NCBI RefSeq assembly: GCF_001187785.1
Contig: NZ_CP012154.1
Coordinates: forward strand, 1,854,501-1,918,500
Source of the DNA: Wenzhouxiangella marina
Lineage (GTDB): Bacteria > Pseudomonadota > Gammaproteobacteria > Xanthomonadales > Wenzhouxiangellaceae
Length of the DNA stretch: 64,000 nt
Reading direction: 5' to 3'
Under the pieces are notes generated by a model. It was not told the origin of the DNA. It saw only the letters and a program-made list of their open reading frames with translations, and did no database searches. Positions 54,648-61,972 of this stretch are shown here, in pieces. A program made the position numbers and the translations under genes. Positions within the stretch are counted from its first letter, which is position 1; each line of letters opens with the position of its first letter.

Positions 54648-56336
54648 TCAGTCGCTGGAGCTACGGGGATCCCCGTACTGATCACGCAGCTCGCGCCGCA
54701 GGATCTTGCCGACGTTGGTCTTCGGCAGTTCATCGACGAATTCGACGTACTTCGGCACCTTGTAGCCGGTCAGTTCCTTGCGACAGTGCTCGCGCAACTC
54801 CTTGACGGTCAGGCTCGGATCCTTGCGAACCACGACCACCTTGACCACTTCACCGGACTTCTCGTCGGGTGCTCCGATGGCTCCGACCTCGAGCACTTTC
54901 GGATGATCGGCCACCACGTCTTCGATCTCGTTCGGATAGACGTTGAATCCCGAGACCAGGATCATGTCCTTCTTGCGATCGACGATGTAGAAGTAGCCGT
55001 TCTCATCCATGCGCGCCATGTCACCGGTCCTGAGCCAACCATCCTCGGTCAGGACCTTGGCCGTTTCCTCGGGGCGCTGCCAATACCCCTTCATGACCTG
55101 AGGACCGCGCACGCACAGCTCACCCGTCTCGCCCTGGGCGACCGGCTGGCCGTCGGGATCGACCACCTGGCAGGAAGTCGACGGGATCGGCAGGCCGATG
55201 GCGCCGTTGTAGTCCTTCAGATCCATCGGGTTGATGCAGGCTGCCGGCGAGGTTTCCGTCAGTCCGTAGGCCTCGATCAGCGGCACGCCGGTGGTCTTCT
55301 TCCAACGCTCGGCCACCGCGCGCTGGACGGCCATGCCACCACCCAGGGTCAGGCGCAGGCTGGAGAAGTCCAGATCAGCGAACCCCGGCGTGTTCAGCAG
55401 GCCGTTGAACAGGGTGTTGACCCCGGTGATCGCGGTGAAACGAATGCTGCCCAACTCCTTGACGAAGCCGGCCATGTCACGGGGATTGGTGATGAGCAGA
55501 TTGCGCCCGCCGAACTTCAGGAAGACCAGACAGTTCGCGGTCAGTGCGAAGATATGGTAGAGGGGCAGAGCGGTGACGATGGTTTCTTCCCCCGGCGTGA
55601 CCAGGCTCCCCAGCCAGGCCGAGCTCTGCTGCATGTTCGCCACCATGTTGCCGTGGGTCAGCATCGCGCCCTTCGAGACCCCCGTCGTGCCACCCGTGTA
55701 TTGGAGGAAGGCGAGGTCGTCGTGATTCAGGGCGGGCTCGTCGAGGGACGCCCGAGCACCGTCGGCCAGGACCGCCTTGAACGTCAGCGAGCCGGGCAGC
55801 GAGTAGGGCGGCACCATCTTCTTGACCCGGCGGATGACGAAATTCATGATCGCCCCCTTCAGGCCCCCGACCATGTCGCCCATACGGGTCAGGATGACGT
55901 GCTCGACCTGAGTGTCGTCGACCACGGCTTCCAGCACGCTGGCAAAGTTGTCCATGATCACGATGGCCCTGGCACCGGAGTCCTTGAGCTGGTGCTTGAG
56001 CTCCCTGGCCGTGTAGAGCGGGTTGGTATTGACCACGACGAGCCCGGCCCGCAGTGCGCCGAACACGGCGATCGGATACTGCAGCACGTTGGGCATCATG
56101 ATCGCGATCCGATCGCCCTTGCCAAGGCCCAGGGCCTGCATCTGCGCGCCGAAGGCACGACTGTAGTCATCGACCTGCTTGTAGCTGAGCTCGGCGCCGA
56201 AATTGACGTAGGCCGTCTTGTCGGCGTAGGTCTCGCAGCTCTTCTTGATCACGTCGGTGACCGAGCTGAACTCGGTCATGTCGATTTCGGCCGGCACGTT
56301 GGCGGGGTACTGCCCAAGCCAAGGTTTGTCGGTCAT
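54648..56336 (-). CDS. fadD: Long-chain fatty acid-CoA ligase
   Basis: Activates free fatty acids for beta-oxidation. It is an ANL-superfamily enzyme with the P-loop-like [43 protein letters not shown] and the C-terminal catalytic Lys region [12 protein letters not shown]. It has 562 residues. It pairs functionally with fadI-fadJ. A perfect inverted repeat lies 26 bases upstream of its ATG. Confidence 0.95.
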
Positions 56337-56508: not shown

Positions 56509-56537
56509 TTGCCCGTTTACCCGGAGGCGGCTATCAT
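56509..56537 (+). promoter_or_regulatory. Promoter of the GCS2-CBS gene
   Basis: TTGCCC (56509-56514), 17 bases and TATCAT (56532-56537), about 30 bases before the ATG at 56567. Assigned by consensus. Confidence 0.5.
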
Positions 56538-56566: not shown

Positions 56567-58489
56567 ATGGGTGAGCAAAACGTAGATCAGGGCTCGGACG
56601 AGAATACCCGCCGCGCCTTCATGAAGGCACTCCTCGACGAGGTTCGAGCGCTGGAGGACATGCACGAGAACGGCATGTTCGAGTCGGGCATTCGCCGGAT
56701 CGGTGCCGAGCAGGAAATGTTCCTGGTGGATCGCGCGGCCCGCCCGGCCCTGACCGCGATGCAGATCCTCGAGCGCATCGACGATCCCCGCTTCACCCAT
56801 GAGCTCGGCCTGTTCAATCTCGAGGCCAATCTCTCGCCCCTGGAGCTCGGTGGCGACTGCCTGCGGCAGATGGAGGCCGAGACCGAGGAAGTGTGCGCGA
56901 TCGCCCGGGAGAAGGCCGCCGAGGTGGAGAGCCGCATCGCCCTGGTAGGAATCCTTCCAACCCTGACCCGGGACCACCTCAGCCTGGATGCGATGGTCCC
57001 GACGGCGCGCTACTTCGCGCTCAACGAGGCCCTGCTGCGGCTGCGAGGCAGCCATTTCCAGATCAACATCAAGGGCATCGACCAGCTCAACTTCAAGCTC
57101 GACAACCTGATGCTCGAAGCCTGCAATACGAGCTTCCAGATCCATTTCCAGGTCGGGGCCGACGAATTCGCGCACCTGTACAACATCGCCCAGGCCGTCA
57201 CCGGCCCGCTGCTGGCGGCCTGTGTCAATTCGCCCATCCTCCTCGGCAAGCGTCTCTGGCACGAAAGCCGGATCGCGGTGTTCGAGCACTCCATCGATGC
57301 GCGCTCCGAAGCCCATGCGGCGCGCGGTCACAAGCCCAGGGTGCATTTCGGAGATCAATGGGTCGAGGAGTCGGTGATCGAGATCTTCAAGGAAGACATC
57401 GCACGCTTCCGGGTCATTCTGACCACCGAATTCGAAGACGACCCGATCGGCAAGGTGGCACGCGGAGAAGCGCCCAAGCTCAATGCGCTGCGTTTGCACA
57501 ATGGGACGGTCTACCGCTGGAATCGCGCCTGCTACGGGATTTCCGACAACGGCAAGCCGCATCTCCGGATCGAGAACCGGGTCATCCCTTCCGGCCCCAC
57601 GGTGCTCGATGAGATCGCCAACGCCGCGTTCTTCTTCGGCATGATGGCCGCGCTGTCGCGCCGCGAATCCGACATCCGGGACAAGCTCCAGTTCGCCGAC
57701 GTCAAGGCCAATTTCATCGCCGCCGCTCGCGAGGGTCTGCGCGCACAGCAGATCTGGTTCGACGAGCGCCAGATGACGGCCCAGGAACTGCTGCTCGAAA
57801 TCCTGCTGCCGCTGGCCCGCGATGGCCTGGCCGACAGCGGCATCGACGCTGCCGACATCGATCGCTACATCGGCACCGTCGAGAAACGGGTCAAGAGCCG
57901 TCGGACGGGCGCCCGCTGGCAACTCGCCTCCCTCGATGCCATGCGCGGCAAGGCGAGCGATCACGAATGCCTGCGCGCCCTGACCAACAGCATGATCGAT
58001 CAGCAGGAGCGCGGCGACTGCGTCGCCGACTGGGAACTGGCCGAGTTCTCACCCAGCCAGGACTGGCGCGACAGCTACCGCACCGTCGGGCAGTTCATGG
58101 CCACGGATCTGTTCACGGTCCGCCCGGATGACATCGTGGATTTCGCGGCGAGTCTGATGGAATGGCGCTACGTTCGACACGTGCCCGTCGAGGACGATTC
58201 CGGACACCTGCTCGGCCTGGTCTCACATCGGCAACTGCTTCGCCTGGTCGCCCGCGGCGGCCGGGCAGGGCAGACCACCATGGTTCGCGACATCATGCAC
58301 ACCGAACCCCTGTCGGTGACTCCCGAGACGACCACCGTCGAGGCGATCCGCATGATGCGGGAGAAACGCCTGAGCTGCCTGCCCGTGGTCAAGGACGGCA
58401 AGCTGGTGGGCCTGGTCACCGAATACGACCTGATCGTGGTCGCCGGCCGCCTGCTCGAGTCCTATCTGGCCGAAGACAGCGAGGCGTGA
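56567..58489 (+). CDS. GCS2-family carboxylate-amine ligase fused to a CBS-domain pair
   Basis: The N-terminal part (about residues 40-430) resembles glutamate-cysteine ligase family 2: RIGAEQEMFLVD, THELGLFNLEANLSPLELGG (part), RLRGSHFQINIKG, and RIENRVIPSGPT. A helical segment follows, then two CBS domains (about 506-630) with FMATDLFTVRPDD and DIMHTEPLSVTPETTTVEAI. CBS pairs usually bind adenine nucleotides. It has 640 residues from ATG 56567, which follows a promoter; the open frame upstream has no similarity. Its stop overlaps the next gene (GTGA). The ligated substrates are unknown. Confidence 0.85.
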   Translation: MGEQNVDQGSDENTRRAFMKALLDEVRALEDMHENGMFESGIRRIGAEQEMFLVDRAARPALTAMQILERIDDPRFTHELGLFNLEANLSPLELGGDCLRQMEAETEEVCAIAREKAAEVESRIALVGILPTLTRDHLSLDAMVPTARYFALNEALLRLRGSHFQINIKGIDQLNFKLDNLMLEACNTSFQIHFQVGADEFAHLYNIAQAVTGPLLAACVNSPILLGKRLWHESRIAVFEHSIDARSEAHAARGHKPRVHFGDQWVEESVIEIFKEDIARFRVILTTEFEDDPIGKVARGEAPKLNALRLHNGTVYRWNRACYGISDNGKPHLRIENRVIPSGPTVLDEIANAAFFFGMMAALSRRESDIRDKLQFADVKANFIAAAREGLRAQQIWFDERQMTAQELLLEILLPLARDGLADSGIDAADIDRYIGTVEKRVKSRRTGARWQLASLDAMRGKASDHECLRALTNSMIDQQERGDCVADWELAEFSPSQDWRDSYRTVGQFMATDLFTVRPDDIVDFAASLMEWRYVRHVPVEDDSGHLLGLVSHRQLLRLVARGGRAGQTTMVRDIMHTEPLSVTPETTTVEAIRMMREKRLSCLPVVKDGKLVGLVTEYDLIVVAGRLLESYLAEDSEA

Positions 58490-58935
58490 GTCCGGGTACC
58501 CTTCGGCACGGCGGATGGCTGGCCATCGTTCTGCTGCTGAGCGCCTGCGCGCCGCCTCCGCCATCCGAAGAACGCATCCGTGCCCGCCTGGGAGAAATGA
58601 CCGAGGCCCTGGCCGAAGGGGATGTCCGGGCCGTACTGGCCCCCCTGGCCGAGGACTTCAACGGTGAGACCTGGAACCTCGACCAACGCGCTCTGCGCCT
58701 GCTGCTGCAGCGTGAGATGCGCGCCCATGAACGGGTTCGGGCGCGACTGATCGATATCGATGTAGAGCTTCACGGGGGCGAGCGGGCCACGGCAAGCTTT
58801 CAGGCCGTGCTGACCGGTGGCAGCGGGCTGTTGCCGGACGAGGGGCGCTGGATCCAGGTGGAAACGGGCTGGCGCCTGGATGACGATGACTGGTGGCTGA
58901 TCTCGGCGTCGTGGGAGGACGTGATCGGCCGCTGA
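58486..58935 (+). CDS. Small lipoprotein with NTF2/SnoaL-like features
   Basis: A 149-residue putative lipoprotein: lipobox LLSAC with Ala at +2, followed by a proline run and RIRARLGEMTEALAEGDVRAVLAPLAEDF, then alternating strands ending WRLDDDDWWLISASWEDV (parts quoted). That pattern fits the NTF2-like fold, ligand-binding or structural. GTG start at 58486 overlaps the preceding stop, implying coupled expression with the GCS2-CBS protein. The function is unknown. Confidence 0.7.
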   Translation: MSPGTLRHGGWLAIVLLLSACAPPPPSEERIRARLGEMTEALAEGDVRAVLAPLAEDFNGETWNLDQRALRLLLQREMRAHERVRARLIDIDVELHGGERATASFQAVLTGGSGLLPDEGRWIQVETGWRLDDDDWWLISASWEDVIGR

Positions 58936-58951
58936 ACGGCATAATGAAGGC

Positions 58952-61900
58952 ATGCTGCCGTCGACCTTCAGCCCGAAGACCCGAGCCTGGTTCCAGGCAG
59001 CGTTCGACGAACCCACCCCGATCCAGCGTGAAGCCTGGCCGAGAATCCAGGCCGGCGAACACGTACTGATCAGTGCCCCGACCGGCGCCGGAAAATCCCT
59101 GGCGGCCTGGCTGCCCCTCCTCGATCGCCTGCACCGAGCGCCGCAGTCGGGCGAGCGGCGCGTTCGTCTCCTCTACCTCTCGCCGCTCCGCGCCCTGTCC
59201 CGGGACATGGCCCAAAGCATGCTCGAGCGGATGATCGGACCGAACAGTGGCCCGGCCGAAGGCCTGAGCATCGGCCTCCGAACGGGCGACACGAGCCCGC
59301 GAGAGCGGGCCGCTCAGCGGCGCCGGCCGCCCGATGTGTTGCTGACCACGCCGGAGTCCCTGTTCGTCCTGCTGGGCAGTCGAGGGGGAAGGTCCATGCT
59401 GGCCGGCGTCGAGGCCGTCATCATCGACGAGGTCCATGCGCTCATCGAGAACAAGCGCGGCGATCACCTGAGCCTGTCCTTGGAGCGACTTCAGGCCCTC
59501 GTCAATCGGCCGATACAACGCATCGGACTGTCCGCGACGGCCCGTCCTCTGGAGCGCGTGGCAAGCTTTCTGGTCGGGCAGGGGCGCGATTGTCGAATCG
59601 TCGATTGGGGTGCCCCGCAGAGCCCGTCGCTCCGGATCGAAACCCCGCCCCTGCCATTGGGCCATTTCGCGGGGCAGCTGCACTGGGCCTTCATCGAAGC
59701 ACGCCTCATCGAGTTGGCCGAGCAGGCGGGCACGATGCTCGTCTTCTGCAACACGCGTGCCCTGGTCGAACGCCTCGGGCATCGGCTGGCGGACGCCCTG
59801 GGCGAGGATCGGGTCGCCTCTCACCATGGCAGCCTCGGACACGATCGGCGGCAGGTGGTCGAACAGGGGCTCAAGAGCGGAACGCTGAAAGTGGTCGTGT
59901 GTTCATCCTCACTCGAACTCGGTATCGATATCGGCCCCCTCGAGCGGGTCTGCCAGATCGGCAGCTGCCAGTCCATCAACACCTTTCGACAGCGCGCCGG
60001 TCGCGCCCGTCACCGGCCCGGTGAGCTCGGTCGAATCCACGCCTTTCCGCTCAGCCTGTCCGATCGCCTGGATCTGGCAGCCATGGAATCGGCGCTCGAC
60101 CAGTCCGACATCGATCCCGTTCAGCCACGTTCCATCAGCGAGGACGTGCTCGCCCAGCAGCTGCTGGCCGAAGTCGCCACCGGGGAGGGGCGGATCCAGG
60201 TCCTGCTGCAGCGCTTTCGTCGAGCCTGGCCCTTCCGGGCCCTGGAGCTCGAAACCCTCGATGCCGTGATCGACATGCTGCACGACGGTTTCGTGCCCGG
60301 TCGGGAGACCGGCCGTGGCCCGCTCCAGCGCCTGGACCGCGACCGCCTCGAGGCCAGCGAATGGATCGATCGCCTCAGCCTGGTCAACGCCGGCACGATT
60401 CCCGAATGGTTCGAGTACGAAGTCATCAGCGACAAGGGCCGCCTGCTGGGCCGCCTGGACGAGGAGTTCGCCTTCGAGTCCTCACCGGGACAGGTCCTCA
60501 GCCTCGGTGGCCAGAGCTGGCGAATCCTGCGCATCGGGCCTGGCCACGTCGAAGTTGAAGCCAGCGAGGACGAGGCACCGAATCTCCCCTTCTGGTTCGG
60601 CGACGGCGCCGGTCGCAGTCAAGCGCTGTCCAGGCGTGTCCAGGGCATCATGGACGCCTCCGATTCCCAGCCCGGAGAACTGGGCCAATGGCTGGAGACC
60701 AGCCGCCAGCAGCTGGGACGTCTGCCGAGTGCGACACGGATCGTGATCGAACGATTCTACGACCCGGGCGGGGATCAGCATCTCGTTCTGCACAGCCTGT
60801 TCGGAGCTCGCCTGAATCGTGGCTGGGGCCTAGCCCTGCGGAAACGTTTCTGCCGGGGCTTCAATTTCGAGCTGCAGGCCGCCGCCACCGACAACGGCGT
60901 GCTGATTTCCCTCGGTGCGGTGCACAGCTTCGCCCTGGAGGACGTGATCCGCTGGCTGACGGCAAGCAGCATCGAGCCCGTGTTGACCCAGGCCCTCCTC
61001 GATACACCGATCTTCCAGACTCGACTGCGCTGGTGCGCCAATAACGCGCTCGCCATCGCCCGCCGCGACCTGCGCGGCAGGGTTCCAGCCCAACTGCAGC
61101 GAAGTCAGACCGAGAACCTGATCGCCCGCATCTTTCCCGACCAGCTGGCCTGTCTGGAGAATCTCTCCGGCGAGCGCAGGATTCCGGACCACCCGCTGGT
61201 TCGACAGGCGATGCGCGATTGCCTTGAAGAACACATGGACCTGCCGGGACTGATCGCCCTGTACCGCTCGATCGAGTCCGGCACCTGTGAGGTCCATTGT
61301 GTGGACCGTCAGCAGCCCTCGCTGCTCTCCGAAGCCATGATCCATGCGCCGCGCTCGAGCTTCCTCGACCCGGCCGCGGCCGAGGAACGCCGAACTCGCA
61401 GCTTCGAGACACCGGCCAGGAATCGAGGAAGCGCCGCTACCTTCGCACGCCCGCCCGAGGAGCTGGCTACGGCCCGAGGTCTGATGAGCGCTCTGAACCA
61501 GTTCGGCTACCTGCGCGTGGACGAGGGCGAGCGAGCGGGTGCTGCAGCCTCATTCCGTGGTCTGAGTTCGAGTTGCGCGGCCCTGGTGGTCCGACCTGAC
61601 GGTCAGCGGCGCTTCTGGGTCGCACTGGAACGTCTGTCCCAGGTGCTGGCGGTCTGGCCGAAGGCCACGATCGGGCCGTTTCTCAGCCGAGCTCAAAGGC
61701 CCAGGCCGGATGCGGATGCCGACGAAGCCCTGGCCCGTCTGCTACTCGGGCGGGTTCGCTATCTGGGGGCAGGAAGATCCGGAGAATTGGCCAGTGAAAC
61801 CGGCCTGCCGGTCACCACGATCGAAGCCGCGCTGGCCCGACTGGAAGCCGAAGGCCTGCTCGAACGCATCACTGAAGAGGATGAAAAGGGAAGCTGGCGA

Positions 61901-61972
61901 GAGCGCCTTGCCTGCCAGGGCAGTGCCCCGGCAAACAGAGGATCCGGGTCGCCGAGCGGGGCGACCCGGTGA
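58952..61972 (+). CDS. lhr: Lhr-family DEAD/DEAH helicase, shortened form
   Basis: ATP-dependent helicase of the Lhr family (ssDNA 3'-5' translocase). Walker A APTGAGKS at residues 42-49, DEVH at 159-162, SAT at 194-196, and QRAGRARH as motif VI. The Lhr-type winged-helix and Lhr-core domains follow. At 1006 residues it is longer than the ligase-associated Lhr core (about 820) and much shorter than full Lhr (about 1500). Past the core it keeps RRFWVALERL and a winged-helix (SGELASETGLPVTTIEAAL), then stops after a low-complexity GSAPANRGSGSPSG tail. The stop lies next to the convergent ctaE. Confidence 0.9.
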   Translation: MLPSTFSPKTRAWFQAAFDEPTPIQREAWPRIQAGEHVLISAPTGAGKSLAAWLPLLDRLHRAPQSGERRVRLLYLSPLRALSRDMAQSMLERMIGPNSGPAEGLSIGLRTGDTSPRERAAQRRRPPDVLLTTPESLFVLLGSRGGRSMLAGVEAVIIDEVHALIENKRGDHLSLSLERLQALVNRPIQRIGLSATARPLERVASFLVGQGRDCRIVDWGAPQSPSLRIETPPLPLGHFAGQLHWAFIEARLIELAEQAGTMLVFCNTRALVERLGHRLADALGEDRVASHHGSLGHDRRQVVEQGLKSGTLKVVVCSSSLELGIDIGPLERVCQIGSCQSINTFRQRAGRARHRPGELGRIHAFPLSLSDRLDLAAMESALDQSDIDPVQPRSISEDVLAQQLLAEVATGEGRIQVLLQRFRRAWPFRALELETLDAVIDMLHDGFVPGRETGRGPLQRLDRDRLEASEWIDRLSLVNAGTIPEWFEYEVISDKGRLLGRLDEEFAFESSPGQVLSLGGQSWRILRIGPGHVEVEASEDEAPNLPFWFGDGAGRSQALSRRVQGIMDASDSQPGELGQWLETSRQQLGRLPSATRIVIERFYDPGGDQHLVLHSLFGARLNRGWGLALRKRFCRGFNFELQAAATDNGVLISLGAVHSFALEDVIRWLTASSIEPVLTQALLDTPIFQTRLRWCANNALAIARRDLRGRVPAQLQRSQTENLIARIFPDQLACLENLSGERRIPDHPLVRQAMRDCLEEHMDLPGLIALYRSIESGTCEVHCVDRQQPSLLSEAMIHAPRSSFLDPAAAEERRTRSFETPARNRGSAATFARPPEELATARGLMSALNQFGYLRVDEGERAGAAASFRGLSSSCAALVVRPDGQRRFWVALERLSQVLAVWPKATIGPFLSRAQRPRPDADADEALARLLLGRVRYLGAGRSGELASETGLPVTTIEAALARLEAEGLLERITEEDEKGSWRERLACQGSAPANRGSGSPSGATR
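61944..61969. terminator. Hairpin across the lhr 3' end, terminator of the cox genes
   Basis: CCGGGTCGCC (61944-61953) and GGCGACCCGG (61960-61969) form a perfect 10-bp stem with a 6-base loop, lying within the last codons of lhr and 9 bases past the ctaE stop. Leaving the hairpin on the minus strand the sequence is moderately T-rich (CTCTGTTTGC), so it probably terminates the minus-strand oxidase transcript. Confidence 0.55.

Follow-up and report, generated by a model that had tools for sequence, protein, structure and literature searches.

Paired formation and removal of an amide is a feature of both the PafA/Dop system and glutathionylspermidine synthetase/amidase (GspSA), the latter being a single protein in which an ATP-grasp ligase is fused to a CHAP amidase. 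Homology between Dop and its ligase, PafA, is described in one source (PMC7947786). A second source (PMC2588565) places PafA and the GCS2 family in one superfamily of carboxylate-amine ligases with a glutamine-synthetase fold, and lists as its motifs GhExE (Ex[EH]) in strand 1, acidic residues in strands 2 and 3, [HD]x[NH] in strand 4 ([HQ]x[NH] in PafA), and Ex[RK]x2D in strand 6. Here we describe a protein that joins a GCS2-like ligase domain to a pair of CBS repeats, encoded in a 64,000-nucleotide stretch of the Wenzhouxiangella marina genome (contig NZ_CP012154.1, positions 1,854,501 to 1,918,500; the whole stretch is hereafter "the window"). The firmer partner of this ligase is an AstE-like hydrolase located outside the window, rather than the lipoprotein whose gene overlaps its own. 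On balance, we consider it probable that the protein is a CBS-regulated carboxylate-amine ligase taking part with this hydrolase in an uncharacterised make-and-break amide cycle.

The fusion gene occupies positions 56567..58489 of the forward strand (ATG at 56567, TGA at 58487-58489, the stop codon being included in the span) and encodes 640 residues. As read from the reading frames of the window, its TGA overlaps, as GTGA, the GTG start at 58486 of a 149-residue putative NTF2-like lipoprotein (58486..58935, same strand, the stop ending at 58935). Both genes, their overlap, and the fusion of a GCS2-type ligase to a CBS pair had been proposed in a first-pass annotation of the same DNA, and all were confirmed. 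Residues 1-491 (56567..58039, +) comprise the GCS2-like domain and a helical C-terminal part, a unit that stands alone in other bacteria, and are followed at about residues 502-626 (58070..58444, +) by two CBS repeats (PF00571, 99.2 bits).

Conservation of the putative active site was read from an alignment of 29 fetched homologues (A2), which omits sequences with an in-frame stop as cut (L046, L057, L062, L063, and L067), one over-long frame (L058), L051, which closely resembles L052, L032, which is truncated, and near-identical copies from the genus. The GhExE motif G46-A-E48-Q-E50 (56702..56716, +), assigned to the metal/ATP site of the superfamily, retains its G and both E in 29/29 sequences, as does Q191-I-H193 (57137..57145, +), the counterpart of [HD/HQ]x[NH], both motifs being defined in PMC2588565. 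Likewise, the E and R of E336-N-R338 (57572..57580, +) are present in 29/29, and E79 and E86, unchanged throughout the same alignment, are candidates for the acidic residues of strands 2 and 3. These residues are the same in CBS-free and CBS-fused homologues. Q191-x-H193 takes the PafA-type form and, in a profile comparison with six strong GCS2 proteins from relatives, aligns with their Q-x-N.

The same profile comparison, made against these six proteins from the genus and the order, gave an E of 1.6e-5 and a probability of 79% over 394 columns. By Pfam, the GCS2 model (PF04107) has a cut-off of 21 bits, which the whole protein just misses at 20.1 and the isolated residues 1-491 just pass at 21.2; it matched 25/27 members of an N-terminal alignment (A3) at E<=1, with a best E of 5.7e-11. 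Outside the CBS part, NCBIfam returned weak matches to glutamate-cysteine ligases and EgtA, far below their cut-offs, and the window ligase and three scanned homologues were all far under the NCBIfam ligase cut-offs. Four relatives are 82-83% identical to the window protein over the ligase part, and a search of viral contigs returned one partial relative. Taken together, family matches and retained motifs support a protein of the carboxylate-amine ligase type, whose predicted fold is, by family, that of glutamine synthetase. The first-pass annotation had called the ligase ATP-grasp-like, a label that finds no support here: no ATP-grasp family was matched in Pfam at E<=1, and both the family matches and the motifs point to the glutamine-synthetase fold. 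The GCS2 family (PF04107), which takes in gamma-glutamyl-cysteine ligase 2, YbdK, and EgtA, shares its superfamily motifs with the window protein and its relatives, while this subfamily differs from it in a substituted strand-6 motif (see below), in its usual AstE-like hydrolase partner, and, in the window's clade, in the CBS pair.

Across 274 genomes of the class, a ligase was detected in 103 and an AstE-like hydrolase in 100, with 98 genomes carrying both, 5 the ligase alone, and 2 the hydrolase alone, under limits that differ between the two (E<=1e-3 for the ligase, E<=1e-40 for the hydrolase); a Fisher value computed on these counts takes no account of common descent. For 89 of these 98 genomes, the match to the hydrolase begins within 600 bases of the ligase, downstream and on its strand, with a median gap of 32. 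Of ten further loci selected from a phylum-wide search, half belonging to the class already sampled, the hydrolase lies directly downstream of the ligase in 10/10; ligase identity to the query is near 32% in some of these, and hydrolase identity falls to 24%, with E of 1e-18 or better. For the nine with a gene-level map, any neighbour other than this pair was common to at most two other loci. These ten, as well as 20 CBS-free loci that were read closely, were picked by hand from the matches. In two genomes ligase and hydrolase occupy one open frame, listed at 814 residues in G049:C37 (L160:798-3242) and at 844 residues in G311:C42 (L161:929-3463), the latter from a TTG start 23 codons before a family-like ATG. 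The over-long frame L058, scanned with Pfam, proved to be the ligase-hydrolase fusion.

The hydrolase itself belongs to the succinylglutamate desuccinylase/aspartoacylase (AstE/AspA) family, as judged on the copy of locus L069, which scores 38 bits with PF24827 (cut-off, 25). Residues H48, E51, H135, E189, and R100, which we take to be metal-site-like by their roles in aspartoacylase, are invariant in 13/13 aligned sequences, the copy from the window's genome included. Unlike named members of the AstE/AspA family, the L069 hydrolase falls under the AstE and aspartoacylase NCBIfam cut-offs, and the copy in the window's genome has no NCBIfam match at all at E<=1e-4. This latter copy (C1:2109829-2110815) is 49% identical and lies 197 kb from the ligase, in a genome assembled as one contig of 3.68 Mb. 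As a separate observation, it is divergent from ABC-transporter-like genes, named by eye as an ATP-binding protein, a permease, and a large membrane-anchored protein (L114:2078-7882, equivalent to C1:2105077-2110881), with counterparts in L115, L116, L118, and, for the most part, L119.

The CBS pair appears to be an addition made once. On a 41-row tree, a branch supported at 100/100 separates the 14 fused sequences from the rest, consistent with a single origin of the fusion within this sampling (a motif filter admitted L091 only of six extra loci; the rows of A2, six genus rows, and L111 were cut at 495 residues). Within the genus, 24 of 25 genomes carry the fused protein, the window's own included, the G022 copy being cut at a contig edge and G015 (84% complete) lacking it, as do 6 of 16 genomes of the same order, which hold it too; a distribution of this kind argues that the fusion is more than chance. 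Most of the ligase homologues extracted from the 103 ligase-bearing class genomes are near 477 residues and without CBS repeats, and two were seen fused among the subset of frames that were read, namely the window's own and that of G045. One further fused gene was found in another class (G672). Within the second CBS repeat, T618-E-Y-D621 (58418..58429, +) is of the T/SxxD type, presumably a nucleotide motif, and is kept in 7/7 fused sequences, while the corresponding position of the first repeat, SHRQ in the window protein, is variable among the same seven. Because the second repeat keeps its motif and the first varies, the pair fits one nucleotide site, and gating of the ligase by energy state, as the first-pass annotation had suggested, is plausible.

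In the cycle that we favour, the ligase would phosphorylate a side-chain carboxylate, probably that of a glutamate-like acid, and transfer the activated carboxylate to an amine, while the CBS pair would probably bind an adenine nucleotide and tune this activity. We infer ligase activity, a shared substrate, and a direction of flow from gene content and conserved residues: because, across Pseudomonadota, the subfamily usually goes together with a zinc hydrolase of the AstE/aspartoacylase family, the two proteins most likely act on one amide, the first making it and the second breaking it or trimming a related compound. For CBS-free forms the two genes make up a cassette, or one frame in two genomes, often right after murU; the window's genome encodes its hydrolase elsewhere, and the CBS pair would be a regulatory add-on of the clade. 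Such a system would resemble PafA/Dop and GspSA in pairing amide formation with removal, and its ligase shares a superfamily with PafA (PMC2588565), yet the hydrolase here comes from a zinc family unrelated to the ligase; no search for a protein tag was made here.

Several results weigh against this cycle. Position 341, where the D of Ex[RK]x2D is expected, is P in 27/29 and A in 2/29 sequences, with the motif placed by eye. A comparison with YbdK-type GCS2 proteins, made with one sequence and with three, was unconvincing (E 0.02 and 0.04, probability 1-2%), and the ligase profile found no convincing chain in the PDB, the four matches, to topoisomerase V at E 0.16-0.31, being taken as chance; by sequence, residues 1-494 alone had no PDB match at E<=10. 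An AlphaFold2 model of the whole protein, built from an alignment of five close sequences (A1, the window protein and L003-L006), was unusable, with a pLDDT of 35. Regarding the hydrolase, 5 of the 103 ligase-bearing class genomes lack it at E<=1e-40, and in fused-ligase genomes it was present in 12 of the 16 checked and lacking at ortholog level in four (G028, G031, G039, and G672), which suggests that the CBS form may have another partner or none. Beyond Pseudomonadota, such a hydrolase is also absent within 6 kb in three relatives from actinobacterial plasmids and in a haloarchaeal one. The plasmid relatives are of the kind annotated in RefSeq without specific function as "Glutamate-cysteine ligase family protein" (e.g., WP_121549401.1 of Streptomyces fungicidicus); their ligase domain is homologous, at 37-39% in the three plasmid records, while their frames, at ~490-500 residues, are too short to include a CBS pair. 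As GhExE, E79, E86, QxH, and ExR are kept while the D is replaced by P or A, the ligase site nonetheless looks catalytic, in what looks like a distinct GCS2 subfamily.

If such a cycle operates, its substrate could be sought in the cell wall, and a possible but distinctly less probable explanation is that both enzymes work on fragments of peptidoglycan: the ligase would install a gamma-glutamyl-type amide on a wall peptide or sugar-peptide undergoing recycling, and the hydrolase would open it, beside AmgK-MurU salvage. The gamma-D-Glu-diaminopimelate link is a gamma-glutamyl amide, and gene order is suggestive: a murU-like gene precedes the ligase on its strand in 12 of the 20 closely read CBS-free loci, and among the matches listed, 47 of the 87 ligase genomes with a placed murU have it on that strand at most 645 bases upstream. 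An AmgK-like gene accompanies 9 of the 20, in one case 6 kb off. At the one locus named by NCBIfam (L069), MurU scored 331 bits against a cut-off of 250, and AmgK 281 bits, under its cut-off of 550. In G132 (C324:7601-9267), murU and an AstE-like gene stand 54 bases apart, and no ligase was found in that genome. Counting both against a wall-fragment substrate and against the cycle more generally, murU occurs in 242 of the 274 class genomes (E<=1e-30) and at none of the ten further loci. Being nearly universal in the class, murU is informative by its position only, and we set its co-occurrence aside as uninformative. In the window's genome, moreover, the three genes are unlinked (ligase at C1:1911067, hydrolase at C1:2109829, murU at C1:2921090).

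The first-pass annotation had instead looked to the envelope for a partner, and an explanation in which ligase and lipoprotein form one functional unit, tying a cytoplasmic conjugate to the envelope, now seems unlikely. The NTF2-like label itself held up with moderate confidence. The signal peptide ends in LLSAC, which we take to fit a lipobox, and an AlphaFold2 model of the mature protein, of moderate confidence (mean pLDDT 61), shows three helices and four long strands, consistent with the NTF2-like pattern of helices followed by a curled four-strand sheet and placing it near solved NTF2 structures. Foldseek listed NTF2-like proteins among its matches, the best row being a CaMKII hub (E 3.9e-5), presumably an NTF2-like domain, and in VIA-align, Z reached 13.6 against a designed protein and 12.5 against a natural NTF2-like protein; the Pfam NTF2-like match was under its cut-off.

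Beyond the overlap seen in the window, the lipoprotein follows the fused ligase in 24 of 28 genomes and was not found downstream in the remaining ones (G024, G030, G032, and G672). In all, 32 genomes were seen with the fused ligase, those outside the count being G021 (208 bases, too short to tell), G004, G007, and G022. Co-conservation, by which the first-pass annotation would have the link judged, holds only in part: a profile search of the 274 class genomes found the lipoprotein family in 29, of which 27 have no fused ligase, the two with it (the window's own and G045) being judged from frame lengths and neighbours. In addition, two genomes of the same order, G025 (C31, L144) and G036 (C1, L145), carry the same locus minus the ligase, with the lipoprotein adjoining a divergent fadD. 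Because the lipoprotein occurs beside fadD without the ligase and in 27 genomes without the fusion, it belongs with the location no less than with the ligase, and is a weak partner; the pattern looks like a shared place and not a shared task. Comparing homologue neighbourhoods, as that annotation had proposed, bore out the lipoprotein as a frequent neighbour while revealing a better partner, the AstE-like hydrolase, beyond the window.

Quite unlikely, too, is a role as a second gamma-glutamyl-cysteine ligase, or as a maker of another thiol-type gamma-glutamyl dipeptide, acting as a spare for glutathione synthesis. The weak NCBIfam matches to glutamate-cysteine ligases and EgtA would fit such a role, but the window protein is far under those cut-offs, and a strong GCS2 gene elsewhere in the genome (303.7 bits) makes it an improbable glutathione enzyme of the cell. 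We also know of no dedicated AstE-type hydrolase partner in glutathione synthesis. Finally, the idea that the ligase fold has lost its activity and persists as a CBS-controlled binding or regulatory protein, to which the substituted D and the borderline GCS2 score lend something, is very unlikely given the motifs and acidic residues retained alike in CBS-free and fused sequences and a usual partner that keeps its own metal-site-like residues. In a separate part of the genome, a second GCS2-family gene (94.3 bits; G000:C1:1828669-1831112, L002:245-2688) lies directly after a RimK-like ATP-grasp gene and is followed by a gene that is N-formylglutamate amidohydrolase-like by eye.

Around the fusion gene, the divergent neighbour is a fadD-type long-chain acyl-CoA ligase (54648..56336, -), named by NCBIfam on its homologue in L144 and a frequent anchor of the locus. 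A single sigma-70-like promoter match (56509-56537, +) lies ~30 bases upstream of the ligase start, with 0.2 matches expected in shuffles of the region. Downstream of the lipoprotein, the window continues with an Lhr-like helicase frame (58952-61972; helicase name by eye). In three other loci only (L028, L029, and L032), the lipoprotein is followed by a carbon-nitrogen hydrolase (cluster 38; PF00795 is matched by the copy in L028), and a large protein, exceeding 1000 residues, is also common to the three downstream of the lipoprotein; these shared neighbours represent a possible lineage-specific operon.

Among the matches listed, a search of the open-access literature by title or start of abstract found no description of the ligase-hydrolase pair or of a GCS2-CBS fusion. 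The 2009 amidoligase survey by Iyer and colleagues might mention related families. The co-presence of ligase and hydrolase in 98 of 274 class genomes, together with two fusions, points to a conserved, unnamed metabolite, and the frequent position beside murU indicates where to look for it first. Tentatively, one may picture a widespread amide cycle in Pseudomonadota in which a glutamine-synthetase-fold ligase and an AstE-type zinc hydrolase would act on a wall-derived or glutamate-based metabolite near AmgK-MurU genes, rewired in the window's lineage with CBS nucleotide sensing and with the hydrolase encoded elsewhere. The CBS-fused clade would represent a natural experiment on the regulation of such a cycle and, if the compound is a wall fragment, the cycle would be relevant to salvage pathways linked with antibiotic tolerance.

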